DNA of 64,000 bases from positions 42,235 through 106,234 of the forward strand of contig VXRD01000170.1 of NCBI GenBank assembly GCA_009838845.1, written 5' to 3'. Position 1 is the first letter of the stretch. The number at the start of each line of letters is the position of its first letter. The notes under the pieces are model-generated. The model made no database searches and was not told where the DNA came from. It worked only from the letters and a program-made list of their open reading frames with translations. The translations under genes were made by a program, and so were the position numbers. Shown here in pieces: positions 42,369 to 59,927 of this stretch. The DNA is from Gemmatimonadota bacterium. Lineage in GTDB: Bacteria; Latescibacterota; UBA2968.

Positions 42369-45341
42369 ATGCCCCTGAGCAACGACTTCATCGAGCAGTT
42401 CGCCACACCTGGGGACGACTACCGTCCGCACATCATGTGGTTCTGGAACGCCCCGCTTGAGGAAGGCGAGGTGCGCCGACAAGTACGGGACTTCAGGGAC
42501 GCAGGCATCCTCAATTTCTACATCCACCCCATGTACGGTTTCCCGGTCGATTACCTGTCCGAGAAAATGTTCGAGGCCATCGGATGGGCTGTCGATGAGG
42601 CCAGGAAGCACGGCATGCGCTTCTGGATCTATGACGAATACAACTGGCCCAGCGGCGCCGCAGGCGGGTACCTGATCCGCGACAACCCCGATCGTCGCAT
42701 GCTCGTGGTGACGAGCGACGAACAGGCATCGGAGCATGGACCCCAGGACGATCACGCTGCATGGCAATGCGTGGACGAATCGGGCAAAGCGACCGTCTTC
42801 CACGAGACGCCACAGAATGGGGTGTGCCCTTTTGCGCAGTGGTCGCCCTTCTGCTGGGGGCAAGAGGGCTACGGCGATGTTTCCGACCCGGAGACGGTAC
42901 GGGCATTCATCGAGCTCACTCATGAAGCCTACCGTAGCCGTTTCCCCGGAGAGCTGGGCAAGACGATTGCCGGCCTCTTTACGGATGAGGTGTCTTACTG
43001 CCTGGCCGGCTTCTACGGCGAGTCCGAGCGCCCTCTCCCCTGGACTCATGGCATGCGCGAAACGTTTCTTGAGCGCCATGGCTATGACGTCGCGGCGCAC
43101 CTCCCGAGCTTGCTGGCAAACGTGGGAGATTACCGGAGAATCAGGTGCGACTACTGGCACTACCTGACCGGCCGCCTGGAGAGCGCCTACTACCGGCAGT
43201 GCGCGGAGTGGTGCCGAGAGCATGGGCTAACGCTCACGGGACACCTTTCGGGGGAGGAGCTTTTCCGCCACAACATTCTCTTCTTCGGAGATTTCTACCG
43301 GTGCCTCCGCTGGCTCGACATCCCCGGGATCGACGCCATCTTCCCTCGACTGAACCACGAGGCCGACCACTTCATGGTCGCCGCTAAGAGCGGGGGGTCC
43401 GCCATCCGCCATCTCGGACGCGACCGACTGCTCTGCGAAACCTACACGGGCAGCGGCTGGGAACTCACGCCCGAGCAGATGAAGATCATCTTCGACAAGC
43501 TCGCCCTGGGCGGTGTCAACCTCCTGCAGTACATGGGCGCCTACTACTCAATCGCCGGCATGCGCAAGGTGCTGCCGGGCGGGTATCCACCCTCACACGG
43601 CCACCAGAATCCGTTCTGGCCGTTCTATCGGACGTTCGGCGACTATGTCGCGCGTATCTGCCAAACGCTGGCTCTGTCACGGTCCACCGGGAAGGTCGCC
43701 GTCCTGCACCCGATCACCACAGCGTTCTGTGAGTGGGCGGGTAGTGCGGAAGACCTGGCCCGGGGAGTCCCGGGGCCGCCCGCCTTCGAGGCGATGCAGC
43801 AAGCCTTCCTTGCTGTGACAAACCTGCTCCTGGAACTCGGGGTCGACTACGACTACCTCTTCGAGGACGTCCTGGCTTCTGCGAACGTGGACCGTGGGAC
43901 CGTTCTGACCGCCGAGGCTGAGTATGAACTGCTGATCTTGCCAAACGTCACTTGCCTGACTCGGAAGACCGCAGAGAAGCTGGCAGGTTTCCTGGAAGCC
44001 GGGGGACGCACGGTCTTCGTCAACAGCGTGCCCGGCTGGGCGGAAGGCGATCCCGCGCTCCTCAAACGAGTGACCGATCATCTCTCGGCGCTGCCGGACA
44101 ACGAGGGGCGTGAAGCGGCCGCCGCACTCCAGGAGGGGACGGGCACACATCTCTGCGGCCGGGATCGCGTGACCTGGATCGTGAGCAACGACCTGCCACC
44201 CGACGCCCGGGACCCGCTGAGGAATGTCCTCGATGCCGTCATTCCACGCGAATTCCGAGCCCTGCCTGAGATGCCGTCCTCCGTGCGGGCAAGTCGGCGG
44301 GTGTTCGACGGCGAGCCGCTGCTGTTCCTCTACAACCAGGGAACGGAGCGCGTGTCCGTGCCCTTGCCTGCTGACGTCAACACAGTCCTCGATCCCGAAA
44401 CAGGGGACGCCGGGAGTATCGACGCGAACGTTGACCTGGCTCCGTTCCAGACGCTTATTGCAGCCCGGACCGACGGGCCGGTCTGCGCCAGCCGGGGACC
44501 GGAGCAGAGCTGGACACAGGAGCTGGTGTTGGGCGAGGCCGAGTTCTCACTCCTCGAGGCGAATTTACTGGCCATCGCCTGGCAGGTCCGGATGTCCGAC
44601 GCCGAGGAGTGGCAGGACCTTGACGGACTGCACTTCCCCGCCACATGTGCGGTTCAGCCCGGCGACGAGTATGAGCTCAAGTGGACCTTCCGAATCGAGG
44701 AAGGTGCGGAGCCGGTCGAGATCGTGACCGAGGATCTGACCGAAGCGTTTCATCTCGAGCTCAACGAACGTCCGCTCACCGGCTTCGAGCGGGCGCGGAT
44801 CTGGGATTGGCGCAACCTGCGGGCAGACATCCGTACTCTGGTCGTGCCGGGCGAGAATGTGGTCACGTTCCGGAGCCGCACACCCGGATGGGATGGGCCT
44901 CACACGCCGCCACTCACAGCGATCCGTGGCGATTTCTGCGTGGACGACGGGTGCCTGGTCAAGACACGAGGGCGTCTCGGCCCCGGGTCATGGGCTGAGG
45001 CGGGCTTTCCAAACTACACAGGCACGGCCCGGTACCGCTGGCGATGTGAGTTGCCGCCACTGGGGGGCCGCGTCTGGGCTCATGCAGAGGAGGTCGCCGC
45101 AGTGGCAGCACTGATTGTCAACGGGCATCGTCTCGCACCGCGCCTCTGGCGCCCCTACACGTTCGACATCACGGATCTCGTGTTGCCGGGGCCGAACGAG
45201 ATTGAGTTAGAGGTCACGAGTTGCGCGACAAACCTATTGGGTTTGAACCAGCCTGAGCTCTTCCTGAAAGGGAAAGCCGCGACGGCCCGACAGGAACGCC
45301 AGGCCGCCGGACTGCTGACGCCTGTGTCCATCAGGTGGTGA
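42369..45341 (+). CDS. GH106-like alpha-L-rhamnosidase family glycoside hydrolase
   Basis: 990 residues. The N-terminal barrel carries GH106 hallmarks: IMWFWNAPLEEGEVRRQVRDFRDAGILNFYIHPM is replaced here by its short keys WFWNAPL and FYIHPMYGF, then WIYDEYNWPSG and GLFTDEVSY. Beta-rich domains follow from about residue 640, including carbohydrate-binding-like sandwiches (ELNERPLTGFERARIWDWRN; LEVTSCATNLLGLNQPELF). No signal peptide is visible. It would remove terminal rhamnose or a related sugar. It starts 10 bp after the ceramidase-like gene with GAGGTGATAG before the ATG. By eye, the gene is markedly richer in G+C-ending codons than the genes before 40 kb. Confidence 0.82.
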   Translation: MPLSNDFIEQFATPGDDYRPHIMWFWNAPLEEGEVRRQVRDFRDAGILNFYIHPMYGFPVDYLSEKMFEAIGWAVDEARKHGMRFWIYDEYNWPSGAAGGYLIRDNPDRRMLVVTSDEQASEHGPQDDHAAWQCVDESGKATVFHETPQNGVCPFAQWSPFCWGQEGYGDVSDPETVRAFIELTHEAYRSRFPGELGKTIAGLFTDEVSYCLAGFYGESERPLPWTHGMRETFLERHGYDVAAHLPSLLANVGDYRRIRCDYWHYLTGRLESAYYRQCAEWCREHGLTLTGHLSGEELFRHNILFFGDFYRCLRWLDIPGIDAIFPRLNHEADHFMVAAKSGGSAIRHLGRDRLLCETYTGSGWELTPEQMKIIFDKLALGGVNLLQYMGAYYSIAGMRKVLPGGYPPSHGHQNPFWPFYRTFGDYVARICQTLALSRSTGKVAVLHPITTAFCEWAGSAEDLARGVPGPPAFEAMQQAFLAVTNLLLELGVDYDYLFEDVLASANVDRGTVLTAEAEYELLILPNVTCLTRKTAEKLAGFLEAGGRTVFVNSVPGWAEGDPALLKRVTDHLSALPDNEGREAAAALQEGTGTHLCGRDRVTWIVSNDLPPDARDPLRNVLDAVIPREFRALPEMPSSVRASRRVFDGEPLLFLYNQGTERVSVPLPADVNTVLDPETGDAGSIDANVDLAPFQTLIAARTDGPVCASRGPEQSWTQELVLGEAEFSLLEANLLAIAWQVRMSDAEEWQDLDGLHFPATCAVQPGDEYELKWTFRIEEGAEPVEIVTEDLTEAFHLELNERPLTGFERARIWDWRNLRADIRTLVVPGENVVTFRSRTPGWDGPHTPPLTAIRGDFCVDDGCLVKTRGRLGPGSWAEAGFPNYTGTARYRWRCELPPLGGRVWAHAEEVAAVAALIVNGHRLAPRLWRPYTFDITDLVLPGPNEIELEVTSCATNLLGLNQPELFLKGKAATARQERQAAGLLTPVSIRW

Positions 45342-45369
45342 AGCCGGTCCCGAGAATGAAGGACCGGCT
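45342..45369 (+). terminator. Hairpin after the GH106-like gene
   Basis: AGCCGGTCC (45342-45350) pairs perfectly with GGACCGGCT (45361-45369) over a 10-nt loop, beginning at the last base of the gene. There is no T-run, so it may be a Rho-assisted or mRNA-stabilising structure instead of a true terminator. Confidence 0.55.
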
Positions 45370-45451
45370 GAACGTTCAGTCCGAGTTTATGCTAACGCCT
45401 GAAGAAATGCAAATCTATCAAGATAGCTGAGCCCGAATCAGGAGGCTGAAA

Positions 45452-47560
45452 ATGATATCACCGCCATCATCTCATATCGGCATCGATATCGGCGGAACAT
45501 TTACCGACATTGCTGTCTTGGGCAGTGACGGTTCGCTCGCTGTCCGGAAGGTCCTTTCCACGCCGGAGGACTACGCCCGGGGTATCATTCAGGGGCTTCG
45601 CGGATTGATTGAAGATCGCCGGATTTCAGAGGTTTCCATTGAGAGAATCGCACATGCCACGACTGTTGCCACAAATGCGATCCTGGAAGGCAAGGGAGCC
45701 CGGACGGCCCTGATCACGACAAAAGGATTCCGAGACGTTCTCGAGATGCGACGGATTCGGATCCCCGAGCTTTACAACCTTTTTTATAGCCCGCCCAGTC
45801 CTCTTGTTCCACGCCGCCTGCGATTCGAATTGGATGAACGAATGGACTCTCGCGGCGGGGTGCGGGAACCTCTCCAGCAGGTGTCCCTGGAAAATGTCCT
45901 GAACACCGTGCAGCAGCAGGAGATCGAAGCACTGGCGATCTGTCTGCTCCATTCCTACGCCAACCCGGAGCACGAACTCCGGGCGGTCACCGCGGCCCGG
46001 GAGTCGCTTCCCGATGTATTTGTCACCGCCTCCTGCTAGGTCCTTCCTGAAATCCGCGAATATGAGCGTACGAGCACGACAGTGATTAATGCCTACCTCG
46101 GGCCGGTCGTGCAGCGATATCTGAATTCCCTGAGCGAACAACTCCAGTCAATGGGCATTCGCGCGCCGCTGGAGGTTCTGCATTCAGGGGGCGGAGTGAT
46201 GACAGCCGACTCGGCGCAGAAGAAGCCCGCCCACCTGATTGAATCCGGACCCGCGGCCGGGGTGATGGCCGCAGCCTGGATGGCCGGCAAAGCAGGCTAC
46301 ACAAACGTGATTACCCTGGACATGGGCGGCACAACCGCCAAGACCGCCATAGTTGAGAACGGAACCGTTGCCCGGACTTCCGAATATGAAGTCGGTGCCG
46401 GTATCAACCTGAGCAGCCGCCTGGTCAAAGGCGCAGGATATGCGCTCAAGCTGCCGGTCATCGATATCGCGGAGATCGGAGCCGGCGGCGGGAGTATCGT
46501 TTCGGTTGACCGGCACGGCCGGCTCCGGGTCGGGCCGGAAAGTGCCGGCGCTGACCCCGGGCCCGTCTGCTACGGGCTTGGAGGCGATGAGCCGACCTTC
46601 ACGGACGCCGCCGTCCTTCTCGGCTATCTCAGTCCCGATGCTCTGCTTTGCGGGAAGATGAAACTGGAGACAGATCAAGCGAGGAGGATATTCGAGGAGA
46701 AAGTGGCCAGACCGATGCAACAATGCCTGATGAAGGCCGCCTTTGGGGCTTTTACACTGGCCTGTGCGACCATGATCCGGGCCGTGAAGTCCGTTTCTAC
46801 GTATCGCGGAAGAGATCCGCGTGAGGCCGCCCTGTTGGCGTTCGGAGGGTGCGGGCCCCTCGTAGCCACAACCCTTGCACAGGCCCTGGGCATGCGAGAG
46901 GTGATTATTCCGCCGCATCCCGGCCTGTTCAGTGCCTTCGGGCTGCTTGTGTCCGAACCCGAGCATGAATCCGTCCGAACCTGGTGTCGCAGACTGGAAG
47001 AGGTCAGGCCCGAAGACTTGAACCGGCTCTATAGCGAACTCGAGTCGCAGGCGGTGGAGACGCTCGTTGCCGAAGGATATCGCCCCGAACAGATTCGAGT
47101 ACGGCGGCTTGCCGATTTGCGCTATGTCAACCAGACCACCGAACTGACCGTGCCTGCACCCGGCGTTCCGCTTGGACCCGGGGAACTAACGACATTGGCG
47201 GAGGCATTCGAGCAGGAGCACCTCACGACCTACGGCCACCGGGCAAACCATGACCCCATCGAACTGGTCAACCTCAGGATTGTCTCGAGCGTCATTCGGG
47301 AGTTCGGAGCGAATGAGCCCCGGGACCTGTTCCGTGCGGATCACCGGGAAGAGAACGTCGTAAAAAACGACTGCAGAAGAACCTTTTTCGGGCCGGCCGG
47401 CGATGATCTGAAAACCGTGGTTTGTTCACGGCAATCCCTCTGCGCTGCGCCCACTGGAGGACCTTTGATCATCGAAGAATTGGACTCAACCACCGTCGTG
47501 CCGCCAGGTTGGCAGGCATCTTTGGACGGCTTCCAGAACATCATTCTTCGACATGCCTGA
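45452..47560 (+). pseudogene. Hydantoinase A / N-methylhydantoinase subunit, interrupted by in-frame TAG
   Basis: The reading frame encodes a full HyuA of 702 codons: IGIDIGGTFTDIAVL at the N-terminus, the ATP-site DMGGTTAKTA, GAGGGSIVSVD and a C-terminal EELDSTTVVPPGW. Codon 196 (46037-46039) is TAG, in the same frame as all downstream sequence. Paralogues in this window have Asp or Glu at this place (SSDVLP, SSEVSP), so a single GAG-to-TAG change explains it. TAG serves as the normal stop of other genes here (for example at 10520, 20474 and 50524), which argues against general recoding. A GTG at 46082 could restart translation of the C-terminal part. Ribosome-binding site AGGAGG precedes 45452. 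Confidence 0.85.
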
Positions 47561-47581
47561 CCACGGTGTGAGAGAGTGGAC

Positions 47582-50524
47582 ATGAACAAGACAGACCCTG
47601 TAACTCTTGAAGTCATTCGCAACGCCCTGGAAATGATCGCTGATACAATGGCGCTTGTGCTGATGCGCAGTGCCTATTCATCAGTGGTGCGAGATTCCAT
47701 GGACTATTCCACCGCGCTGTTTGACGCAAAAGGCAGAATGATCGCCCAGGGTCTCACGACCGCGCTGCATCTCGGCTCGTTTCCCGTGGCCATCGCAGAA
47801 CTCACCCGGGCATATGAAGACAGAATACATGCGGACGATGTGTTTATTACCAATGACCCTTATGGTGCCGGCGGCATGCATCTGCCGGATATCTATCTCA
47901 CCCTGCCCATATTTTTTGCTGGCGTACTGGAGGGCTTTGCGGTTGCCCTTGTCCACCATGCAGACGTTGGCGGGATCGCACCCGGGAGCAATACGTCGTT
48001 CTCCACCGAGATCTACCAGGAAGGTCTCCGCATTCCACTCGTCAAACTTTACGACCGGGGAACACCCAATGATACGGTATTCAAATTTATTGAAAAAAAT
48101 GTCAGGGTACCTGTGGAAGTCGCGGGCGATATGCGCGCCCAGCTCGCTGCCTGCCGCCAGGCTGAACAGGCCTATATGCAGCTTCTGGAAAAATATGGAT
48201 CGGATTCGCTGGGGCATTATCTCAACCAACTTCTCGAACTCGCCGAACGCATGATGCGGGAAGAGATTCAGGCCATCCCAGACGGCAGCTATGAGTTCAC
48301 GGATTTCATCGACGGTCTGGGCAGCGAACCGGAACCGATCCGGTTTCAGGCGACCATCACGATTGCCGGCGAGGAGGCAGTCGTGGACTGGAGCGGGAGC
48401 GCGCCGCAGGTGAAAGGCGGCATTAATGCGCCCTTCCCGATGACTCTCTCAGCATCCTACCTTGCTTTCCGATGTCTGGGAGGGCGTGATATCCCCAACA
48501 ATGAGGGTTATATGCGGCCCATCCGGGTTCTCGCACCGGAGGGTACGATTATGAACCCCGTCCTGCCTGCCGCCTGCTCAACCCGCGGGATTACGGGCTT
48601 TCGGATGCTGGACACCCTTCTGGGCGCGCTGGCCGGAGCCGTTCCGGACCGTGTGCCGGCGGCAGGGGAGGGCGGCGCAACGTTTCCCTCGATTGGCGGT
48701 TATCACGAGGGCGAGCCATTTGTCTTTACAGAATCCGTTCTCGGCTGTTCAGGCGGTCGGCCGGATCGCGACGGCGCCGAAGGCGTTCCCAATCCCGGCG
48801 CCAATCAATCTAACCAGCCCGTCGAACTCATCGAAGCACGTCACCCCATTGAGATATTGCAGTACGGCCTGGTCATGGATTCCGGCGGACCGGGAAAATA
48901 CCGGGGCGGGTTGGCGCTCATGAGAGAATACAGGATCCTTGCGGAGGAAGCCGTTTTGAGCATGCGATCAGATCGACGGGCGCATCCGCCGTACGGACTA
49001 CAGGGCGGCCTTTCCGGGTCTCCAACCTGCAATACTCTCTATTCCGGTCCGAACCAATCACTTCTTCCTGTGCTTCCAAGCGAAGCGATCGTGTTAAGGA
49101 AAGGAGAGATCCTGCGCCATCTTCAGGCAGGCGGCGGCGGCTGGGGCACGCCTGTGGAACGGAATCCTCAAATGGTCCTGGAAGATGTACGGAATGATAA
49201 GGTCAGCCTCGAGCAGGCCAGGGAAGTTTATGGTGTGGTAATCGACCCCCTAACACTGAGTATGGATGAAGAGGCAACAGCCACGACCCGGCAGAGGATG
49301 CTGGCAGCAGGCGAACATGAAAATAGGGCATCGGCGGATCTCTCTGCAGAAGACCTTTCCAGGATACCGAGTCGGGCGGCCCTGGCCGGCAGGGTCAGCT
49401 CGAAGGAAATGGCGGACCGCGTCGCCTCGTTCCATGTCGTGGGAAGCGAAGTCCTGTCGCTCAAGGGTTCGCCCGCCTGGCCGCCGCCGGAACATGTCCT
49501 GGCCGCCGCCGAACAGGCCATAGGCGAGAATGCAATGGCCCCTTCCAACGGCTTCCCCGAACTTCGGAAAGCCATCGCGGCAAGATGGGAAACCGATGAC
49601 GGGATCCGACCGGACTCGGATACGGAGATCCTGATCACGCACGGCGCCATGCATGCCATGAGCATCGCGTTTCTGGCGCTGCTCGCGCCGGGCGACGAGG
49701 TTCTGATGTTCAGTCCGGGATTTCAATTTGGCGGACCGCTTCACCTCGCCGGCGCCGTCGCGGTCTGCGTGCCGACTCACCAGGAACAGAACTGGCGCTG
49801 GGACCTCGAGGCCATGGAAGCGGCCTGTTCGTCAAGGACCCGCATGGTGATCCTGAATTCGCCCGGAAATCCGACAGGATATGTGGCGTCAAAGAGAGAT
49901 CTCGAGGCGGCCGCGGAGCTGGCCCTCAGGCACAATCTCTTGATTCTCTCTGACGAGTGCTACGACAAGATGGTCTATGACGGGCGAAAGCACTTGAGGG
50001 CGGCCTCCATTCCAGAGATCCGGGACCGGCTGCTGACATTGTGCAGTTTTACCAAGAGCTATGCGATGCAGCCGTGGCGGTTGGGGTATATTGTCGGGCC
50101 CCCGGACCTGATATCTGCTTGCCGGAAGGTGCTTGAGTGGAATGTGCTCACCTGCAGCCATATCGCCCAGCGGGCAGCGCAGGCGGCATTGGAGGGACCG
50201 CAGGACTGGGTGCACGAGATTGCCAGGCGGTACCAGCAGTACCGTGACCTGATGATAGAGGGCCTGGACCGGGCACCGGGGATTTCCTTTGCCGTCCCGG
50301 CAGGAGCGCCATTTCTATTTCTGAACATACGCGGACTCGGCCTTCCCAGCGCGGAATTTGCCGAAGCGCTGCTTTCAGAATACGGCGTCGCTGTCGAGCC
50401 CGGCGGACCGTACGGGTCCGGAGACCATGTAAGGCTCATGTTCGGCGGTACCGAAAAGACCATACAGGAGGCAGCAAACCGATTCCGGAAGATAGTGGGC
50501 AACCTTGCGTTGTCCGGTCAGTAG
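47582..50524 (+). CDS. Hydantoinase B fused to PLP-dependent aminotransferase
   Basis: 980 residues in one uninterrupted frame (an in-frame GTG lies two codons earlier). Residues 1 to about 570 are a complete HyuB/oxoprolinase beta-type domain: DPVTLEVIRNALEMIADTM, NDPYGAGGMHLPDI, HHADVGG, YRGGLALMREYRI and the terminal GGGGWGTP. A linker of about 35 residues follows. From about residue 605 to the end is a class I/II aminotransferase: SNGFPELRKAIAARW, NSPGNPTGYV, SDECYDKMVYDG and the PLP lysine Lys825 in SFTKSYAMQPWRLGYI, ending FGGTEKTI. The two enzymes would couple ring-opening of a cyclic amide to transamination of the released amino acid. The intact HyuB at 56991 lacks the second part. 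Confidence 0.9.
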   Translation: MNKTDPVTLEVIRNALEMIADTMALVLMRSAYSSVVRDSMDYSTALFDAKGRMIAQGLTTALHLGSFPVAIAELTRAYEDRIHADDVFITNDPYGAGGMHLPDIYLTLPIFFAGVLEGFAVALVHHADVGGIAPGSNTSFSTEIYQEGLRIPLVKLYDRGTPNDTVFKFIEKNVRVPVEVAGDMRAQLAACRQAEQAYMQLLEKYGSDSLGHYLNQLLELAERMMREEIQAIPDGSYEFTDFIDGLGSEPEPIRFQATITIAGEEAVVDWSGSAPQVKGGINAPFPMTLSASYLAFRCLGGRDIPNNEGYMRPIRVLAPEGTIMNPVLPAACSTRGITGFRMLDTLLGALAGAVPDRVPAAGEGGATFPSIGGYHEGEPFVFTESVLGCSGGRPDRDGAEGVPNPGANQSNQPVELIEARHPIEILQYGLVMDSGGPGKYRGGLALMREYRILAEEAVLSMRSDRRAHPPYGLQGGLSGSPTCNTLYSGPNQSLLPVLPSEAIVLRKGEILRHLQAGGGGWGTPVERNPQMVLEDVRNDKVSLEQAREVYGVVIDPLTLSMDEEATATTRQRMLAAGEHENRASADLSAEDLSRIPSRAALAGRVSSKEMADRVASFHVVGSEVLSLKGSPAWPPPEHVLAAAEQAIGENAMAPSNGFPELRKAIAARWETDDGIRPDSDTEILITHGAMHAMSIAFLALLAPGDEVLMFSPGFQFGGPLHLAGAVAVCVPTHQEQNWRWDLEAMEAACSSRTRMVILNSPGNPTGYVASKRDLEAAAELALRHNLLILSDECYDKMVYDGRKHLRAASIPEIRDRLLTLCSFTKSYAMQPWRLGYIVGPPDLISACRKVLEWNVLTCSHIAQRAAQAALEGPQDWVHEIARRYQQYRDLMIEGLDRAPGISFAVPAGAPFLFLNIRGLGLPSAEFAEALLSEYGVAVEPGGPYGSGDHVRLMFGGTEKTIQEAANRFRKIVGNLALSGQ

Positions 50525-50639: not shown

Positions 50640-52061
50640 ATGACTACATCCGACCGACCCAATGTCCTCCGGGCCGGCGGTGCGCTGATTGACATAACGC
50701 CGAACGCAGGCACACACTTGGGCGGCACGTGGGGCGTGTTACGCGATGCGCGCACGGTGGCGGAACCGCTATACACCCGGGCTCTCGTGCTGGAATCCCG
50801 CACACGGAAACTCTGTATCGTCCAACCAGACCTGGAAATCGCCACGCTTCCGTGGACGCAGAAGATTCGCCAGAGCATTGAGCGCCGCTGTGGAATCGCG
50901 CCCGACGACATCATGGTACATCTTCCGCAATCCCATTCCACGCCGCCCCTCGGCAACTTTGTCATCGACGAGGCGCTGCCCAACATTCCGCCTGAACTAG
51001 AGTACCTCCGCGGCTCCCAATCTGAGTACTGCGAGTACGCCGTCGGCAAAATCCTTTCGTGCGTTGAAGCCGCGGACAAAGCCTTGCATCCGGTCCAACT
51101 CGGCGCGGGCCGGGCGGTCCGTGATGATCTGGCCTTTAATCGGAGGGGAGTAACTCGCGACGGGGGCATAGTGATGCCGGGACAGTTCTCCAGGGCGTCC
51201 AGGCCGCTGGGCCCCACGGACATCGCCTTCCTCGAAGGTCCGACGGACCCCGAGGTGGGGATGGTGTGTCTGCGCAATGAGAAAATGAAGATGAGCGCTA
51301 TGCTCCTTCACTTCACGTGCCATCCGGTCAATGTGTTCGCCACGCAGCACTACACCGTCTCGCCGGACTGGCCGGGCGTTTGGTGCGCCGGGATGCAGGA
51401 GGAATGCGGTGAAACGTGCGTTCCCCTGGTGCTCAACGGTTGCTGCGGCAACATAAACCCGTGGCCCGCATTCCACGCCGATTTCGTCCCGGACCACCGG
51501 CGCATGGGGCGCGCGCTGGCCGAGACCTCACGGCACATCCTCAGTGCACTCACCTTCGAAGAAGAGGCCACGCTGGACGCACGAGTGAAGCTCGTCCCGC
51601 TCCCCTTGAAGAAGGCCGATTCCGCCGACCGCGCAGCCGCCGAGAAGCTCCTTGCCGAGCACCCCGAGCCACGCTGGGATGAAGATAGTACGCCTCGCCG
51701 CGTGAACGCCGATTGGATGGATGCGGCCATGCTGATGAGCGTGGAGCTTGAGCGCGAGCGCTCCCCAGAGCTCGCCTATGAGATTCAAGTCATGCGCATC
51801 GGCGACATCGCCCTCGTCGGACTCCCCGGCGAGCCCTTCGTCGAAGGCCAACTGGAGATCAAAGTCCGGTCGCCCTTCCCCTATACTTTCGTCGCCCACA
51901 ACACAACCGACTTCGCCGGCTACATCGCCCCGCGCCACAGTTACCCGCGGGGCGGGCATGAGATTCGTAACAAGCCGGCGAAGTGGGCAAAGGTGGAGCC
52001 GGGGTGTCTGGAGAAGATCGTGGAGGAGGCGGTGAGGTTGCTGGACGAGATTGGGACCTAA
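50640..52061 (+). CDS. Neutral-ceramidase-like protein, paralogue 2
   Basis: 473 residues, clearly similar to the gene at 40961 through most of its length (shared RAVRDDLAFNRRGV-type segment, PLGPTDI, LEGPTDPEVGM, HFTCHPVNVFA, NGCCGNINPWPAF, LPGEPFVEGQLEIK). Candidate zinc ligands are the His in HLPQSHSTP (near residue 103), the His in TCHPV and the Glu in PGEPF. No export signal. An amidase role on a non-ceramide substrate is the best guess from the family. AGAAGGAGA lies six bases before the ATG. It is downstream of the HyuB-aminotransferase fusion (115 bp) and directly before an acyl-CoA ligase. Confidence 0.85.
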   Translation: MTTSDRPNVLRAGGALIDITPNAGTHLGGTWGVLRDARTVAEPLYTRALVLESRTRKLCIVQPDLEIATLPWTQKIRQSIERRCGIAPDDIMVHLPQSHSTPPLGNFVIDEALPNIPPELEYLRGSQSEYCEYAVGKILSCVEAADKALHPVQLGAGRAVRDDLAFNRRGVTRDGGIVMPGQFSRASRPLGPTDIAFLEGPTDPEVGMVCLRNEKMKMSAMLLHFTCHPVNVFATQHYTVSPDWPGVWCAGMQEECGETCVPLVLNGCCGNINPWPAFHADFVPDHRRMGRALAETSRHILSALTFEEEATLDARVKLVPLPLKKADSADRAAAEKLLAEHPEPRWDEDSTPRRVNADWMDAAMLMSVELERERSPELAYEIQVMRIGDIALVGLPGEPFVEGQLEIKVRSPFPYTFVAHNTTDFAGYIAPRHSYPRGGHEIRNKPAKWAKVEPGCLEKIVEEAVRLLDEIGT

Positions 52062-52143
52062 AGGATTGTGCGGGTTTATGATTGCGGGGGCATGCCGGAC
52101 CCCGATTGGGTCTTTACACGACGGTCCCGAGGAGGATTTGCCA

Positions 52144-53685
52144 TTGAATGTCGCTCATCTGGTAGCTAGAGCGGGGACCACTTTCAGCGAAAAGCCCGCG
52201 ATCGCAATTGGTAAGAATGCGTACTGCTCCTACGGAGACCTCTACAGTCGCGTATCGACCATGGCAGGTCGATTCCTCGATCAACTCCATCTCAAACCCG
52301 GGGACCGCATCGCACTCGCCATGCAGAACTGTGCGGAATTCCTCGAAGTGATGTACGCTGCCTGGCATGCCGGGCTGTGTACAGTCCCGATCAACGCCAG
52401 GCTGCATGCGCGTGAGTTTCAGTATATCCTCGAGAACTCAGGCGCCCGCTGCTGTTTTGTCACCGCTGACTTGCTTGAGACGATTGATTCGCTTCGCGAT
52501 CTGATACCTTCGCTCGAGTATGTGGGCTGTGTATCCTCATCCGATTACAAATCCCTGCGACAGGGCAAATCGGTTCGGATGGCAGAACGTTCGTCCGACG
52601 ATCCCGCCTGGATATTCTACACGAGTGGTACGACGGGTCGCCCCAAGGGAGCTGTGTTGAGTCATCGCAACTTGATGGCGTTGACACTGAATTACTTTGT
52701 CGATGTCGATGCGGTCTCATCAGAAGATTGCATCCTGCATGCAGCTCCCCTCTCCCACGGCTCGGGTCTGTACAACCTCTCCCACGTCGCTGTTGCGGCA
52801 AAACAGGTCATCCCGGCGAGTGGCCGGTTCAATCCTGATGAAGTTTTCGACCTGATTGTCTCCCACGAAGGGATGACGATTTTCGCAGCGCCGACAATGG
52901 TGAAACGACTGGTCGATCATCCCACCAGCCGTAGCGCCAATACGTCAAACTTAAAAACGATCGTGTACGGCGGTGCGCCGATGTATGTAGCCGATCTGAA
53001 GCAGGCCATAAATCTATTTGGCAACAAGCTGGTTCAGATCTACGGTTTAGGCGAAAGCCCGATGACGATTACGGCGTTGTCGAAAGGGCTGCATGCCGAG
53101 AAAGATCATGCTCGGTTTGAAGAACGGCTTCAATCGGTGGGGGTCCCTCAGTCGGTGGTCGAAGTCAGGGTGGTCGATTCGAATGACCGGGTGCTCCCTC
53201 CTGGCGAAATAGGCGAAGTGATTGTCAGGGGTGATGTTGTCATGTGTGGATACTGGGAAAATCCGGAAGCAACCGAAACGACCATGCGAAACGGCTGGCT
53301 GCATACGGGCGACATGGGTACGTTCGACGAGGACGGGTTTTTGACGTTGAAGGATCGCTCAAAGGATCTCATTATCAGTGGAGGCTCCAACATCTATCCC
53401 CGGGAGGTGGAGGAGGTCCTGCTGATGCATGGAGCCGTCCAGGAGGTATCGGTGATCGGCCGGCCACATCCAGAATGGGGGGAGGAGGTTGTTGCTTTTG
53501 TTGTGGCGGGGGATGGCCGTGAAAAGATGGAGGACGAGCTGGATGTGCTCTGTCTCGATCATATCGCTCGCTTCAAGCGCCCCAGGGCCTATTTCTTTGT
53601 GGATAGTTTGCCCAAAAACAACTACGGAAAGATCCTGAAAACTGAGTTGCGACAGTGGCTGGATAAAGAAGACCTTGCAGGGTAA
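52144..53685 (+). CDS. AMP-dependent acyl-CoA synthetase/ligase
   Basis: 513 residues from a TTG with GAGGAGG seven bases upstream, giving the usual family start (NVAHLVARAG); an ATG at 52078 in the same frame would add 22 residues unlike the family. Motifs: ATP/AMP loop FYTSGTTGRPKGA (near residue 170), YGLGESP, WLHTGDMG, KDRSKDLIISGGSNIYPREVEE and the C-terminal lysine in NNYGKILK. It activates a carboxylic acid to its CoA thioester through an acyl-adenylate. Placed between a ceramidase-like amidase and a threonine aldolase, it could activate the acyl chain released by the amidase. Confidence 0.9.
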   Translation: MNVAHLVARAGTTFSEKPAIAIGKNAYCSYGDLYSRVSTMAGRFLDQLHLKPGDRIALAMQNCAEFLEVMYAAWHAGLCTVPINARLHAREFQYILENSGARCCFVTADLLETIDSLRDLIPSLEYVGCVSSSDYKSLRQGKSVRMAERSSDDPAWIFYTSGTTGRPKGAVLSHRNLMALTLNYFVDVDAVSSEDCILHAAPLSHGSGLYNLSHVAVAAKQVIPASGRFNPDEVFDLIVSHEGMTIFAAPTMVKRLVDHPTSRSANTSNLKTIVYGGAPMYVADLKQAINLFGNKLVQIYGLGESPMTITALSKGLHAEKDHARFEERLQSVGVPQSVVEVRVVDSNDRVLPPGEIGEVIVRGDVVMCGYWENPEATETTMRNGWLHTGDMGTFDEDGFLTLKDRSKDLIISGGSNIYPREVEEVLLMHGAVQEVSVIGRPHPEWGEEVVAFVVAGDGREKMEDELDVLCLDHIARFKRPRAYFFVDSLPKNNYGKILKTELRQWLDKEDLAG

Positions 53686-53840
53686 TGAGGTGAAAAATTC
53701 CAGAATTCGAGCCTTCTCTGGGTGTCACGATGCCCTGCAGAGAACCATGAAACCTGGTGAGAGACGGAGAAAGCAGCGAAGTTGCAGGGAGGAAAGACCA
53801 TAGCTGCTGACGCCCATGGCCATCAGGTGGTGATAGGAAC

Positions 53841-54920
53841 ATGATGTGCGAGAACATTGCTGACGGCGGTGCAGCTCAGGTCGTCGATCTCAGATCGGAC
53901 TTTGTTGCCCGACCAACTCCGGCCATGGTTGAAGCCATGCTGCGTGCTGCGAGGCAACCCTGCGGCTTCGGGCTGCGCGAAGACACGATCGTTGCCGACC
54001 TTGAAAATCGCGCGGCGGAGGTCATTGGAAAGGACGACGCTCTTTTTGTGCCGACTTGCACGATGGCCAACCAAATTGCGCTACATATTCATTGCAGGCC
54101 CGGTGAGTTGTTCGTAACGGAAGCCTACGCCCACGTGGTGACGTCGGAGTCTGCCGCCACCGCCGCGCTGTCCGGTGCCATGCCGAAGATGCTCCCGGCC
54201 CAGGCCGGTGCGCTTGACCTCGACGCTTTGCGTGATTCCCTCCGACACAGCGATGCACAGCACCCGCGCCCCGCCGCAGTCGCCCAGGAAAACACGCACG
54301 TGCGTTCTGGAGGTCGTGTCGTGCCCACGGCACACATGACAGCTATTTACGACATCGCCAGCAGTCAGGAGGTACCGGTGCACCTTGACGGCGCGCGGAT
54401 CTTCAATGCAGCCGTCGCCTCAGGAATCCCGGCGCGTGACATCGCCATGACATGCGATACCGTTTCCTTCAATCTCAACAAAGGACTTGGTGCGCCACTC
54501 GGCGCGATCCTTGCCGGACCCGATGGGTTCATCGCCGAGGCAGTGCGCATCAGACAAATGTTCGGCGGCGGTTGGCGACCGGCCGGCATTGTTGCCGCGG
54601 CAGGTATCGTTGCGCTCGAGACGATGATCGAACGACTGCACATAGATCACACCACTGCGCGACAACTGGCAAATGGTCTGTCTTCCCAGCCAACTCTTAG
54701 TATTGACAAGTCCCAGGTGGAGTCTAACATCGTGCTCGCACGTCCAGACACAATGCGCCCCGAAACCCTTGCCGCCGCGCTTGAACGTGAGGGCGTGCTG
54801 GTTTTACCGTTCGGCGATGACGTGCGTCTTGTGACCCATCACGAAATCACTGAGAACGCCGTTGAGATCACACTGAAGGCGTTTCACTCAGTTCTCAGTG
54901 GAGCATCCCATGGCCCATAG
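53841..54920 (+). CDS. Low-specificity threonine aldolase-like beta-eliminating lyase
   Basis: 359 residues, fold-type I PLP enzyme: DLRSDFVARPTPAM at the N-terminus, GLREDTIVADLENRAAE, FVPTCTMANQIAL, HLDGARIFNAAV with the PLP-contact Asp, and the Schiff-base Lys214 in NLNKGLGAPLGA. L-threonine aldolases split beta-hydroxy-alpha-amino acids to glycine and an aldehyde. Typical members read DGARLxNA; the conserved His/Arg set appears kept. The 3' end overlaps the next gene by 11 bp (stop 54918-54920 versus ATG 54910), so it is coupled to HyuA. Bases 53686-53840 hold no recognisable feature. Confidence 0.9.
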   Translation: MMCENIADGGAAQVVDLRSDFVARPTPAMVEAMLRAARQPCGFGLREDTIVADLENRAAEVIGKDDALFVPTCTMANQIALHIHCRPGELFVTEAYAHVVTSESAATAALSGAMPKMLPAQAGALDLDALRDSLRHSDAQHPRPAAVAQENTHVRSGGRVVPTAHMTAIYDIASSQEVPVHLDGARIFNAAVASGIPARDIAMTCDTVSFNLNKGLGAPLGAILAGPDGFIAEAVRIRQMFGGGWRPAGIVAAAGIVALETMIERLHIDHTTARQLANGLSSQPTLSIDKSQVESNIVLARPDTMRPETLAAALEREGVLVLPFGDDVRLVTHHEITENAVEITLKAFHSVLSGASHGP

Positions 54921-56994
54921 GCTTGGCGTCGATATCGGCGGCACCTTTACTGACTTCGCACTGGTCGATAACGACTCCGGCGAACTCTCAACACACAAGC
55001 AATTGACCACACCGTCCGATCCATCGCTCAGCGTTCTGACCGGAATTGCAGCACTACTCAGCCGAACCGGCGTCGATATCTCCGACGTCACCGTCCTGTC
55101 ACACGGCACGACGCTCGTCACGAATGCCGTCATCGAACGCCGCGGCGCGACGACCGGCATGTTGGTCACCAGGGGCTTCCGCGATGTCCTGGATATCGCC
55201 ATGGAGCGTCGCTACGATTTGTTCGACCTGCGACTGGGTTTTGCAGAGCCAGTCGTCCCGCGGGATCTGCGCGCCGAGCTTTCGGAACGCATCCTATTTG
55301 ATGGGCAGGTTGAGACACCCTTGAATGAAAAAGAGGTTCAAGCGGCCGTCGCACACCTGGTTTCTGCGCATGGGATAGAGGCTCTGGCCATCTGTTTCTT
55401 GCATGCCTATGCCAATCCGGATCACGAAAACCAGGCCCGAGACACTGTCGCGAAGGCATTTCCCGACCTGCATGTTAGCACCTCGTCCGACGTACTGCCC
55501 TTCATGCGGGAATATGAACGCTGGTCGACAACCACGATCAACGCGTATGTGCGCCCGCTGACCGATCGCTATCTCGAACGCCTGGAGACCGGACTGTCCA
55601 CCATGGGATTTGATGGTCGTTTTCTGGTGATGACATCGTCTGGCGGCATGGTCACGCCTGAAATCGCGCGGCGCTATCCGGTGCGGCTTATCGAGTCGGG
55701 GCCGGCCGCCGGCGCCCTCATGGCGGCCAATTTGGGACAGCGAATTGGCGAACCCAATCTACTGGCATTTGACATGGGCGGGACGACGGCAAAGGGCGCC
55801 CTAATCCGCAATGGCCGCCCCCTGCGCCGCTACGAGTTCGAGGTGGCGCGAGAGCATGACTTCAAGCAAGGCAGCGGTCTCCCACTCCGTATCCCAGTGA
55901 TCGACATGATTGAGATTGGTGCCGGTGGCGGGTCGATCGCCAATGTCGACGAACGCAATCTTTTGGCCGTTGGACCCAAGAGCGCCGGCGCGGAGCCCGG
56001 TCCAGCCTGTTATAGCCAGGGCGGCGACAACGCAACGTTGACGGATGCCAACCTGACCCTCGGCTATCTGGTTCCAGAGGCATTTCTTGGTGGGAATATG
56101 ATCCTGGACAGCGAAGCCGCACATCATGCAATTGACCGGAATGTCACCGAACCACTTCGGGTCGACACGATCCGAGCTGCCTGGGGTGTTCATGAGGTCA
56201 TCAACGAGGACGTCGCGCGGGCATTCCGCACCCATGCTGCGGAAATCGGCTTCGACTACCGCCGCTGCACAATGATCGCGTTTGGCGGATCCGGCCCGGC
56301 ACACGCCATTCGTATTGCTCGAAAGCTGCGAATCCCAAAGGTGGTTTTCCCCGTCGGTGCTGGCGTGATGTCGGCGATTGGACTCTTGATGACTCCGATT
56401 TCCTATGCAACCTTGCGCTCTGGGCGGGTCAATCTCGAAGAATTGGATGCAGATGGCCTCGACGCCGGATTCAATCTGGTTGAACGCCAGGCACGTTGCC
56501 TCCTTGCAGAGGCCGGCATTGACGACGCGCAGATTCAAATTGACAGGCGGCTTGACATGCGGTATTGCGGCCAGGGCCACGAGGTTGAAGTGCCGCTTCC
56601 GCCGGGCATTGACCGCAATGGCATCGCCGATCTCTTTCGCGAAACCTATGTCAAGATTTTTGCCGCCACGCCAATCGATACCGGAATTGAGATCGTCAAT
56701 TGGAAAGTGGAGGCGAGCGGACCTGAGCCGGAATTCGCAGATCGCTATCGCCCATTCAGCGGCGCTCTGACCTCACAAGAACAGGTTGGTGAGGCCGGTA
56801 TCTTCTGCGACGACGCAACGGGACTTGCCAATTGTCCTGTCTACGATCGTTACGCCCTGGACCAGGGGCAGCGCATAACGGGTCCTGCCCTCGTCCAGGA
56901 GAATGAGGCAACAACCGTCCTGAGCGTTGGCGACACGATCGAAGTTGATGACATGGGCAACTTGATTGCGACATTGGCCGGAGAGACGTCATGA
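54910..56994 (+). CDS. Hydantoinase/oxoprolinase family protein, HyuA subunit
   Basis: 694 residues from ATG 54910 (GGAG seven bases before it). It shows the Hydant_A_N domain (LGVDIGGTFTDFAL, HGTTLVTNAVIER) to about residue 180, the ATP-grasping Hydantoinase_A domain (ESGPAAGALMAANL, DMGGTTAKGAL, EIGAGGGSIANVDE, GGSGPAHAIRIARKL) and a C-terminal domain. With HyuB it hydrolyses hydantoins, oxoproline or similar cyclic amides using ATP. It has a four-base ATGA overlap with hyuB, as usual for this pair. Two further HyuA proteins are encoded in the window, one broken (45452) and one intact on the other strand (61899). Confidence 0.92.
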   Translation: MAHRLGVDIGGTFTDFALVDNDSGELSTHKQLTTPSDPSLSVLTGIAALLSRTGVDISDVTVLSHGTTLVTNAVIERRGATTGMLVTRGFRDVLDIAMERRYDLFDLRLGFAEPVVPRDLRAELSERILFDGQVETPLNEKEVQAAVAHLVSAHGIEALAICFLHAYANPDHENQARDTVAKAFPDLHVSTSSDVLPFMREYERWSTTTINAYVRPLTDRYLERLETGLSTMGFDGRFLVMTSSGGMVTPEIARRYPVRLIESGPAAGALMAANLGQRIGEPNLLAFDMGGTTAKGALIRNGRPLRRYEFEVAREHDFKQGSGLPLRIPVIDMIEIGAGGGSIANVDERNLLAVGPKSAGAEPGPACYSQGGDNATLTDANLTLGYLVPEAFLGGNMILDSEAAHHAIDRNVTEPLRVDTIRAAWGVHEVINEDVARAFRTHAAEIGFDYRRCTMIAFGGSGPAHAIRIARKLRIPKVVFPVGAGVMSAIGLLMTPISYATLRSGRVNLEELDADGLDAGFNLVERQARCLLAEAGIDDAQIQIDRRLDMRYCGQGHEVEVPLPPGIDRNGIADLFRETYVKIFAATPIDTGIEIVNWKVEASGPEPEFADRYRPFSGALTSQEQVGEAGIFCDDATGLANCPVYDRYALDQGQRITGPALVQENEATTVLSVGDTIEVDDMGNLIATLAGETS

Positions 56995-58547
56995 CCCAGT
57001 ACGATCCCGTCAGTCTCAAGATCTTATGGGACCGCCTGGTCTCGATTGCCGACGAACTCGTCCTGTCGCTCGTCCGCACATCGTTCTCCATGAATGTTCG
57101 AGAGGGCTACGACCTGTCATGTATGATCTTTGACGCCAGGGCACACCTCGTGGCGCAGGGCAGCTACTCGGTGCCGTCCTTCACCGGAACGGCACCACAG
57201 ACCATCGCTCACATGCTGCGTGCGTTTCCGGCCAACACGTTGAAACCCGGCGATGTCATCGCCACCAACGATCCATGGATGGGCACCGGTCACTTATTCG
57301 ACATCAATGTCATGCGTCCGGTATTTCTTGGCGATCGCCTGACAGGGTTCACCATGAGTGTCACGCATCTGCCGGATATCGGCGGCAAAGGCATGGCGTC
57401 TGACTGCACGGAGGTGTACCACGAGGGCCTGCGCCTTCCCGTGTGCAAGCTAAGCGACGGTGGTCAGCTAAATGAACTCCTCCTCGATATCGTTCGCACC
57501 AACGTCCGCGTTCCGGAACAGACGGTTGGCGATTTGATGGCGAACGTCGCTTGTAACGAAGTCGGCGGGCGGGCCTTGCTGGAGTTCATGGACGAGTACG
57601 GTCTCGATGAGATCGAAACACTCTCCGACGCCATCAACGATCACGCCGAGGCCGCAATGTGCGAACACATCGCCGAGATCCCTGACGGCTCTTATGCCAA
57701 TGCCATTGTAATTGAGGGGCCGGGCCGGCCAATTCAACTGGCCGCCAACGTCAGAGTAAACGGCAGTCATGTCGCCATAGATTTCACCGGCACTGAAGGC
57801 CCTGTGCGGGCCTCAATTAACGTGCCGTTCTGTTACACTCGCGCCCAGGCCAACTACGTGATCAAGTGTCTGACGATCCCCAATCTGCCGAACAATGCCG
57901 GCGCGGCACGACCGATCGATATCTCGGCACCCGATCATTGCATCCTCAATGCGCAACCGCCGTGGCCGACCGGTGGGCGACATTCGGTGGGTCACTTCGT
58001 TGTCCCGCTCTTGATGGGTGCCATGGCGCCGGCCCTGCCGGACCGTGTCCAGGCCGACGCCGCCATGATGAATGTCTTCAGCGTCCAGGGACGTCACCGT
58101 GACGGCGAGGAAATCTCCTCACTCTTCTTTCTCGCCGGCGGGCTCGGTGCCATGCTGGGGCAGGATGGCCGCGCCGTCACACCGGCGCCGTCCAACATGA
58201 CTGTGATCCCCACGGAGGTCTGGGAAAACCGCACGTCCATCACCATCGAAAAGCGTGAGATCCTACCCGACACAGGCGGCGACGGGAAGTGGCGCGGCGG
58301 CGACGGCCAGGAAGTGGTCTTTCGTAATGACACAGGTCATCTCCTCGAGATCGCCCTAATGGGTCAGCGAACCGAATTTGCAGCCAAGGGGCTACAAGGC
58401 GGCGACGACGGGGCACTTCGCCGGTACGAAGTCAATGGTCAACTGGTCGACCCCAAATCGCGTGTCGAGCTGTCACCCGGTGATCGGATTTCGATGCGCG
58501 AGGCCGGCGGCGGCGGCTTTGGCTCAGCCGCCGAACGCAGGGGTTGA
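56991..58547 (+). CDS. Hydantoinase/oxoprolinase family protein, HyuB subunit
   Basis: 518 residues, a normal-length HyuB without fused domain. Conserved segments: DPVSLKILWDRLVSIADEL, NDPWMGTGHLFDINVM, THLPDIGGKGMA, GGRHSVGHFVVPL, GGDGKWRGGDGQEVVF and the terminal GGGGFG. It supplies the metal site that completes the ATP-dependent cyclic amidase with HyuA. Its start is inside the last codon of the upstream gene. Between its end and the convergent ceramidase-like gene (78 bp) lies a stem-loop that includes the stop codon. Confidence 0.92.
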   Translation: MTQYDPVSLKILWDRLVSIADELVLSLVRTSFSMNVREGYDLSCMIFDARAHLVAQGSYSVPSFTGTAPQTIAHMLRAFPANTLKPGDVIATNDPWMGTGHLFDINVMRPVFLGDRLTGFTMSVTHLPDIGGKGMASDCTEVYHEGLRLPVCKLSDGGQLNELLLDIVRTNVRVPEQTVGDLMANVACNEVGGRALLEFMDEYGLDEIETLSDAINDHAEAAMCEHIAEIPDGSYANAIVIEGPGRPIQLAANVRVNGSHVAIDFTGTEGPVRASINVPFCYTRAQANYVIKCLTIPNLPNNAGAARPIDISAPDHCILNAQPPWPTGGRHSVGHFVVPLLMGAMAPALPDRVQADAAMMNVFSVQGRHRDGEEISSLFFLAGGLGAMLGQDGRAVTPAPSNMTVIPTEVWENRTSITIEKREILPDTGGDGKWRGGDGQEVVFRNDTGHLLEIALMGQRTEFAAKGLQGGDDGALRRYEVNGQLVDPKSRVELSPGDRISMREAGGGGFGSAAERRG

Positions 58548-58625: not shown

Positions 58626-59927
58626 CTACAGGTCGTGCAGATTGCGCAGGAGAGCCAGATTTTCTTCGACCAGAACATCGTCGATGTTCTCCGCCAGAAT
58701 GTACGCGCCGAAGGCTTTGGCCACCCAAACTTCGTACCCGCCGCGGTGCAGCGAATCCCGCGTGGCGAAATAGCCATAGCTGCCACACGAAGTACTGGCG
58801 CAAAGCGTATATTGAAAGGGACTGTACTGGCGCAATCGAAGTACGATTTCTGCGAATGGCTCGCCAGGGAAAGGAACAAACGCGATCGGCCCGAGAGCAG
58901 TGATCACCTGCCGGTAAGTTGTGCCAGGTAACGGTTCGGTTTTGTGGGCATGGATAACGGCTTCCCAGTGTTTGTACTCGCACATGCCCTTCCCTGGCTC
59001 ATCCTTTTCGGATTTAGTCAAGGCGAACGTCCGCTCGGCTTCTTCCAGTGGAGGCAGCGACCGGTAGGGCATCATGATGTCCCCGTTGATAATGGACAAC
59101 GGCAGGTCCTGGAACGTCTTGATGGACCGGTACGCACGCATCGCATCCATTCCGGCTCGCAATCCGACTTCCATGAGCGCCATTTCGCCATCTCCGACGG
59201 CGCGGAGGCTATTGGTGCGGGGGGCGATATCACCGACGGCGCCGTTGACAAAGAAAACCGGAGCGCCCGTGAGGTGTTCCACCCGGTCGATCATGACACC
59301 CGGCCAATCGCGGGACACTGCCCTGTTAGCACTGGAGAAAACGGTTGGATGCGCGCCGTAGTGGATCAATGAAACAAGCGGCCCATCCTTCCCTTCAAAT
59401 CGCAAAAGGGTCATCTCGGGATCATAAGGTCCCCAGGGATTGACACCCAGGGCAACCTCGTGGTTTTCAAGGACCTCTCGTCGGTTGACGCCCACGTCAC
59501 TCTGCGTTGTGCCGATGCCTACAGTTACAGGTATGGGTGATTGAGCAGCGGTGACGGCGGCTTCAATGCTTCTCTCGACGAGCCTATCGATATACGGTTT
59601 GTCCTTTTCGCTCCATCCCCAGCAATCAATGGTGCAGGGTCCACTGTGAGTCTGGATAGCACAGATAGTGATATGATCCGAAGGGATGCCTGTTCGATCA
59701 TAGATTCCCTGGCGAATGGACTCGACTTCGACATCATCTACAATGCACACATCAAGGCTCAAAATGACGGCTCTCACGCTATTTTGTTCCAGGTAGAGCG
59801 CATTCGCGTTGAGTCGGTCACGTACGGATTCGGCTCTGCGGTCTGGATCCGGGTAGCCCAGCAGCAGACATCCCAGATCTGGGGTAATATCCGTTCGTGC
59901 AAATCCGGCCTGTAATCGAGTTCCCAT
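58626..59927 (-). CDS. Neutral-ceramidase-like protein, paralogue 3 (divergent)
   Basis: 433 residues. The same family as the genes at 40961 and 50640 but more distant: TDITPDLGCLLLGY at the start, ICAIQTHSGP (metal His), SLIHYGAHPTVFSSAN, VFFVNGAVGDIAPR and FPGEPFAEIVLRL. The CCG of the other two (NGCCGN) is replaced by NGAVGD, nearer to the classical ceramidase sequence. THSGP also equals the classical metal motif better than the other paralogues. AGGAGAG precedes the ATG. It is the third gene of a minus-strand operon after HyuA and the CocE-type hydrolase (20 bp gap). Confidence 0.85.
   Translation of the reverse strand: MGTRLQAGFARTDITPDLGCLLLGYPDPDRRAESVRDRLNANALYLEQNSVRAVILSLDVCIVDDVEVESIRQGIYDRTGIPSDHITICAIQTHSGPCTIDCWGWSEKDKPYIDRLVERSIEAAVTAAQSPIPVTVGIGTTQSDVGVNRREVLENHEVALGVNPWGPYDPEMTLLRFEGKDGPLVSLIHYGAHPTVFSSANRAVSRDWPGVMIDRVEHLTGAPVFFVNGAVGDIAPRTNSLRAVGDGEMALMEVGLRAGMDAMRAYRSIKTFQDLPLSIINGDIMMPYRSLPPLEEAERTFALTKSEKDEPGKGMCEYKHWEAVIHAHKTEPLPGTTYRQVITALGPIAFVPFPGEPFAEIVLRLRQYSPFQYTLCASTSCGSYGYFATRDSLHRGGYEVWVAKAFGAYILAENIDDVLVEENLALLRNLHDL

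Follow-up and report, generated by a model that had tools for sequence, protein, structure and literature searches.

In Pseudomonas jessenii, caprolactam is opened by the HyuAB-family lactamase CapAB, after which a separate omega-aminotransferase leads to the oxo acid (PMC6061476). The A subunit of CapAB activates the ring with ATP, and the B subunit performs the metal-assisted hydrolysis (PMC8453981). In the locus described here, a HyuB and a PLP domain resembling class I aminotransferases are encoded by one single gene. It lies in a 64,000-nucleotide stretch of a Latescibacterota genome, which was analysed as a whole and is called the window in the following. The first-pass annotation of this sequence knew of no described HyuB-aminotransferase fusion. 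Our literature search, which had partial coverage, likewise found no description, and no paper on the two sister MAGs introduced below was found. The fusion is apparently undescribed so far; it joins enzymes that are adjacent elsewhere and does not represent a new kind of system.

As the best explanation of the whole, to which we give an even chance, we propose a functional fusion that carries out ring opening and then removes the amino group from the released amino acid. The HyuA encoded by the upstream gene would perform the ATP-dependent activation of a cyclic amide (a lactam or a hydantoin-like ring), and the HyuB half would finish opening the ring with the assistance of metal. The free amino acid thus released would pass to the tethered PLP half, which would transaminate it to an oxo acid. 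The reaction order, transamination as the PLP reaction and the free amino acid intermediate are what we infer in this scheme. Dimers are known for HyuAB-family enzymes as well as for class I aminotransferases, so that a dimeric assembly could suit both halves.

The fused gene and its unfused counterparts

The fusion gene and its parts, together with the gene directly upstream, are located in the window as follows:

45452-47560, + strand: hyuA (ATPase subunit), directly upstream of the fusion; split by a TAG at 46037-46039
47582-50524, + strand: HyuB-aminotransferase fusion gene, 980 aa, ATG start (Pfam; same frame in two sister species)
47594-49153, + strand: Hydantoinase_B domain, residues 5-524 (Pfam PF02538)
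49310-49381, + strand: linker, approximately residues 577-600, limits approximate
49382-50521, + strand: class I (aspartate-aminotransferase-like) PLP domain (Pfam, alignment, model, Foldseek)

The frame runs from the ATG at 47582 to a TAG stop at 50524 and yields 980 residues without any internal stop upon translation; an in-frame GTG is present upstream of the ATG, at 47576. In the same stretch, the two remaining forward frames contain 31 and 24 stops, and an open frame of such length is thus not a product of chance. Translation and the Pfam matches bear out the uninterrupted 980-codon frame reported in the first-pass annotation, in its coordinates as well as in its content. The linker was placed at about residues 577-600 because unfused HyuB relatives stop at about 575-580 in the numbering of the fusion protein. 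Model confidence is low across residues 556-611, and the linker is modelled as disordered.

Two further species from the genus of the window genome (Latescibacterota) have the same unbroken frame, with approximately 97% amino acid identity. Both are Candidatus Latescibacterota MAGs from a public collection that were deposited separately (G002, JAJDYX010000050.1, and G009, JAGWBW010000066.1). The alignment of the three fusions comprises 2943 bases and has zero gaps, the linker included, at 97.6-97.7% nucleotide identity (divergence 2.3-2.5%). Pairwise pN/pS values among the three species are 0.07-0.14 for the HyuB half and 0.18-0.35 for the aminotransferase half. To obtain a neutral expectation, changes were simulated with the observed transition bias. 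For the HyuB half, in which we counted 12 nonsynonymous and 32 synonymous changes, the expectation is 30.6 nonsynonymous changes, and none of 2000 simulations gave a number as low as the observed one. The aminotransferase half has 16 nonsynonymous and 20 synonymous changes against an expectation of 24.9 nonsynonymous ones (P 0.003, by simulation). Purifying selection acts on both halves of the fusion. We conclude that the fusion is real and conserved, and that it probably arose within one Latescibacterota genus.

With these data, the fusion is present in 3 of 64 Latescibacterota genomes, all of which belong to one genus (3 of its 11 members); the draft genomes of the other 8 of the 11 members gave no fusion match. 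A scan of 84,980 species for the linker plus aminotransferase pattern, which detects close relatives only and would miss remote fusions elsewhere, returned the two sister species and no other close relative. Other families of the Latescibacterota possess unfused HyuBs that are about 50% identical to that of the fusion, and in the loci read, no aminotransferase gene was found near them.

Outside this phylum, a tblastn search of plasmids resulted in 114 records in which at least 80% of the fusion is matched at one place. A hyuB followed by a class I aminotransferase gene, as two genes, is common on proteobacterial plasmids, and in the annotated examples checked from Rhizobium, Shinella and Agrobacterium fabrum plasmids, hyuA, hyuB and the aminotransferase gene are consecutive. 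Haloterrigena and Bradyrhizobium have one gene in between hyuB and the aminotransferase gene, and in Haloterrigena the order is reversed, with the aminotransferase gene first. On plasmids of S. fredii and A. fabrum (L051:5938-8856 and L073:5992-8910), only one stop codon separates hyuB from an aminotransferase gene in the same frame; judging from these sequences, the two pairs are one mutation short of a fusion. A Sinorhizobium fusion candidate, which appeared as a single tblastn piece, was rejected because a TAG separates two genes.

In the HyuB tree, the fusion groups with the HyuBs of Marinibacterium, Bosea, Paraburkholderia and Pseudosulfitobacter (support 100/99, 50-55% identity). In the aminotransferase tree, the other half is a lone long branch. 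The plasmid hyuB-aminotransferase operons are found on other branches in both trees, and descent of the fusion from a rhizobial-type operon is thus unsupported. Since neither half groups with these operons, HyuB and aminotransferase seem to have been paired on more than one occasion, and this speaks for a functional link. The closest HyuB relatives have DadA and RidA (Marinibacterium), alanine racemase (Bosea, Paraburkholderia) or, in Pseudosulfitobacter, an FAD oxidoreductase and RidA as neighbours; all of these would suit a HyuAB that releases a free amino acid.

The proposed coupling of the two halves has a competitor, which we consider somewhat less probable than an even chance. The halves may be joined and yet independent, with the stop lost in a co-transcribed pair, so that the fusion would provide co-expression at a fixed ratio and no coupling. 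The S. fredii and A. fabrum pairs illustrate how short the way to such a product would be, and the linker, modelled as disordered, is without a sign of constraint, having 3 nonsynonymous changes and 1 synonymous change. However, four changes are too few to judge constraint, and the fused state has been kept in three species with selection on both halves.

Properties of the two halves

The HyuB half matches PF02538 with 560.6 bits (cut-off 26.8; E 4e-168) over model positions 1-519 of 519. In the alignment, its residues D41, H100, D103 and H125 correspond to D41, H99, D102 and H124 of CapB (6yra_B), which are the metal ligands of that subunit (PMC8453981), and all four are invariant across the HyuB alignments. 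Still, the model of the caprolactamase beta subunit (NF050157) gave 319 bits, below its curated cut-off of 1000, and a caprolactamase identity of the HyuB half was rejected for this reason. Best PDB matches are 7hk5 and 9h03 (N-methylhydantoinase / 5-oxoprolinase). The full-length model of the fusion is poor in its second half, for which there are few alignment rows, and was used for the HyuB fold only.

The PLP half matches PF00155 in residues 635-968 with 198.9 bits (cut-off 19.7; E 2e-58), covering model positions 18-361 of 361. The HyuB domain is complete, the aminotransferase domain near-complete. The PLP lysine expected in the motif SFTKSYAMQPW was located at K825 (AAG, 50054-50056), and the alignment also shows the aspartate for PLP-N1 (D791), Y794 and the arginines R833 and R951 to be kept. 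Sequence identity to the class I aminotransferases 1gd9, 1dju and 1j32 is about 32-33%. A separate model of the PLP half has a mean pLDDT of 80, with its first 56 residues disordered. Its fold is closest to aspartate/aromatic aminotransferases, the best Foldseek match being 1gd9 with a TM-score of 0.83 (by query length).

Three deviations from the class I comparators were observed, at positions that are usually conserved. The substrate loop reads GSPAW where they have G-x-PDF, QPWR replaces their TGWR, and apparently a methionine occupies the position aligned with the PLP-phosphate tyrosine, which we take to be Tyr70 of aspartate aminotransferase. The G-x-PDF loop and Tyr70 are typical of the class I comparators and do not strictly define PF00155. 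Due to these deviations, the substrate of the PLP half would be an unusual one, and the reaction possibly too.

The same deviations would fit a different assignment, which we regard as rather unlikely, namely that the PLP half belongs to a different kind of fold-type-I PLP enzyme (racemase, lyase or cyclodehydratase) and has the ring-opened amino acid as its substrate. This would also agree with its isolated long branch and with the alanine racemase that accompanies the closest HyuB relatives in two genera. The best NCBIfam model for the PLP half is moreover that of GntC (PLP cyclodehydratase, NF041364); its score of 280.6 bits is below the curated cut-off of 415, however, and membership was rejected. 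The residues characteristic of class I (aspartate, tyrosine, lysine and the two arginines) are retained, and the top matches in sequence and fold are aspartate/aromatic aminotransferases. These reach 212 bits, far above the 74.8 bits of the 8fft chain, which is presumably GntC. A more specific version of the coupled reaction can be put forward only tentatively: in a bifunctional enzyme of cyclic-amide catabolism, the atypical PLP domain may accept the ring-opened product directly at the HyuB active site, and its reaction may differ from plain transamination.

For the functional fusion with transamination, PLP chemistry restricts the possible substrates. In an N-carbamoyl amino acid the nitrogen is acylated; an external aldimine is impossible, and there is no direct transamination. 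The first-pass annotation had named the N-carbamoyl or the free amino acid as what the fused transaminase would act on directly; the first of these therefore does not hold. A hydantoin ring would need a decarbamoylase; the genes annotated near the fusion include no recognisable HyuC/N-carbamoylase candidate, so that a lactam-type substrate is somewhat favoured over a hydantoin.

The surrounding cluster and the split hyuA gene

Downstream of the fusion, the following genes were annotated:

50640-52061, + strand: neutral-ceramidase-like hydrolase, next downstream gene in all three species (Pfam 20.3 bits, below the cut-off of 32.1)
52051-53685, + strand: acyl-CoA synthetase (AMP-binding), in G002; absent from the G009 locus
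53841-54920, + strand: PLP-dependent threonine-aldolase-like enzyme, mostly missing in G002; absent from the G009 locus
54898-56994 and 56991-58547, + strand: hyuA2 and hyuB2, an unfused pair

The constant core across the three species consists of hyuA, the fusion and the ceramidase-like gene. In G002 or at the G009 locus, the acyl-CoA synthetase, the aldolase and the hyuA2-hyuB2 pair are lacking in part or completely. Positions 53941-54892 are missing in G002 and 52081-58507 at the G009 locus, giving the cluster round the fusion a modular appearance; 69 bases of the window (45316-45384) are found again close to the G009 break. A third hyuA/hyuB set is located at 61899-63980 and continues beyond the window (G000:C170:106260-107960), adjoining genes for an S15 peptidase and an M81/MlrC-type metallopeptidase. 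Three of the four HyuB genes of the window genome lie within about 18 kb. Neutral-ceramidase-like genes were found at 50640-52061, 58626-59927 and L066:8334-9683, one scoring below and two above the Pfam cut-off. Other Latescibacterota HyuAB pairs (about 50% identity; L058, L060, L061) adjoin an X-Pro dipeptidyl-peptidase-like S15 gene, in one case together with an amidohydrolase. These S15 and amidohydrolase neighbours may hint at the breakdown of cyclic peptides or amides.

HyuA is the obligatory partner of HyuB, and the first-pass annotation had overlooked that its gene is interrupted. Codon 196 of hyuA is TAG (46037-46039) in the window genome only and breaks the gene into two open reading frames; both sister species have GAG at this position and an intact hyuA. 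Read-through is not expected, since TAG is an ordinary stop here and terminates, for example, the fusion gene. Either HyuA is lost in this strain, or another hyuA supplies the subunit, or the TAG is a base error of the assembly. Due to the nonsense codon, ring opening in the window species has probably been lost or relies on another HyuA.

One might go further and regard the gene of the window species as a decaying relic, with HyuA inactivated first and the HyuB-aminotransferase next, which we think improbable. The restriction of the TAG to the window genome would agree with it, as would the 11 nonsynonymous and 9 synonymous changes in the aminotransferase half on the branch of this genome (G000), whereas the two remaining branches have 5 and 11. 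However, this difference is small, and the G000 branch also contains the stem leading to the other two. The frame of the fusion is unbroken, the TAG in hyuA may be an assembly error, and two further hyuA genes (54898-56994 and 61899-63980) could provide the subunit. Although the window genome is a draft assembly of 172 contigs, an assembly or frameshift artefact merging two genes is ruled out for practical purposes by the two separately deposited MAGs, which share the frame without a gap at 2.3-2.5% nucleotide divergence, and this also answers the earlier worry about a base missing between 49280 and 49440.

Comparison with known systems

Gene fusions are strong hints of a common pathway. Together with the independent hyuB-aminotransferase, hyuB-racemase and hyuB-dadA-ridA neighbourhoods, the fusion points to a free amino acid as the product of many HyuABs. 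If true, this would help to assign hydantoinase/oxoprolinase genes, which are commonly annotated by family only; the HyuAB group concerned is large and mostly uncharacterised.

With the class I aminotransferases (1gd9, 1dju, 1j32), the PLP half has the fold and the catalytic residues in common, but it differs in its altered substrate loop and in the attached HyuB. In N-methylhydantoinase and 5-oxoprolinase (7hk5, 9h03), HyuB is part of a longer polypeptide, as in the fusion. There it follows HyuA, however, while here HyuA is a protein of its own and a PLP enzyme is attached at the C-terminal side of HyuB. The operons of Marinibacterium, Bosea, Paraburkholderia and Pseudosulfitobacter resemble the fusion in that a related HyuB is found beside amino-acid enzymes, but these are DadA/RidA or alanine racemase instead of an aminotransferase. 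The rhizobial, Shinella and Agrobacterium plasmid operons show the gene order of the fusion, two of them with a shared frame and one stop, but consist of two genes whose HyuB and aminotransferase belong to other tree branches.

The system described at the outset, CapAB followed by an omega-aminotransferase (PMC6061476, PMC8453981), also has HyuAB-type ATP-dependent opening and then an aminotransferase, and the metal ligands of CapB are conserved in the fusion. In contrast to the fusion, the P. jessenii pathway employs separate proteins, and its omega-aminotransferase is of subgroup II, not class I. The first-pass annotation had seen in the fusion a new route from a cyclic amide to a 2-oxo acid; as caprolactam already provides a described case of a lactamase working with a separate aminotransferase (PMC6061476), what the fusion would add is a new architecture and not a new route.
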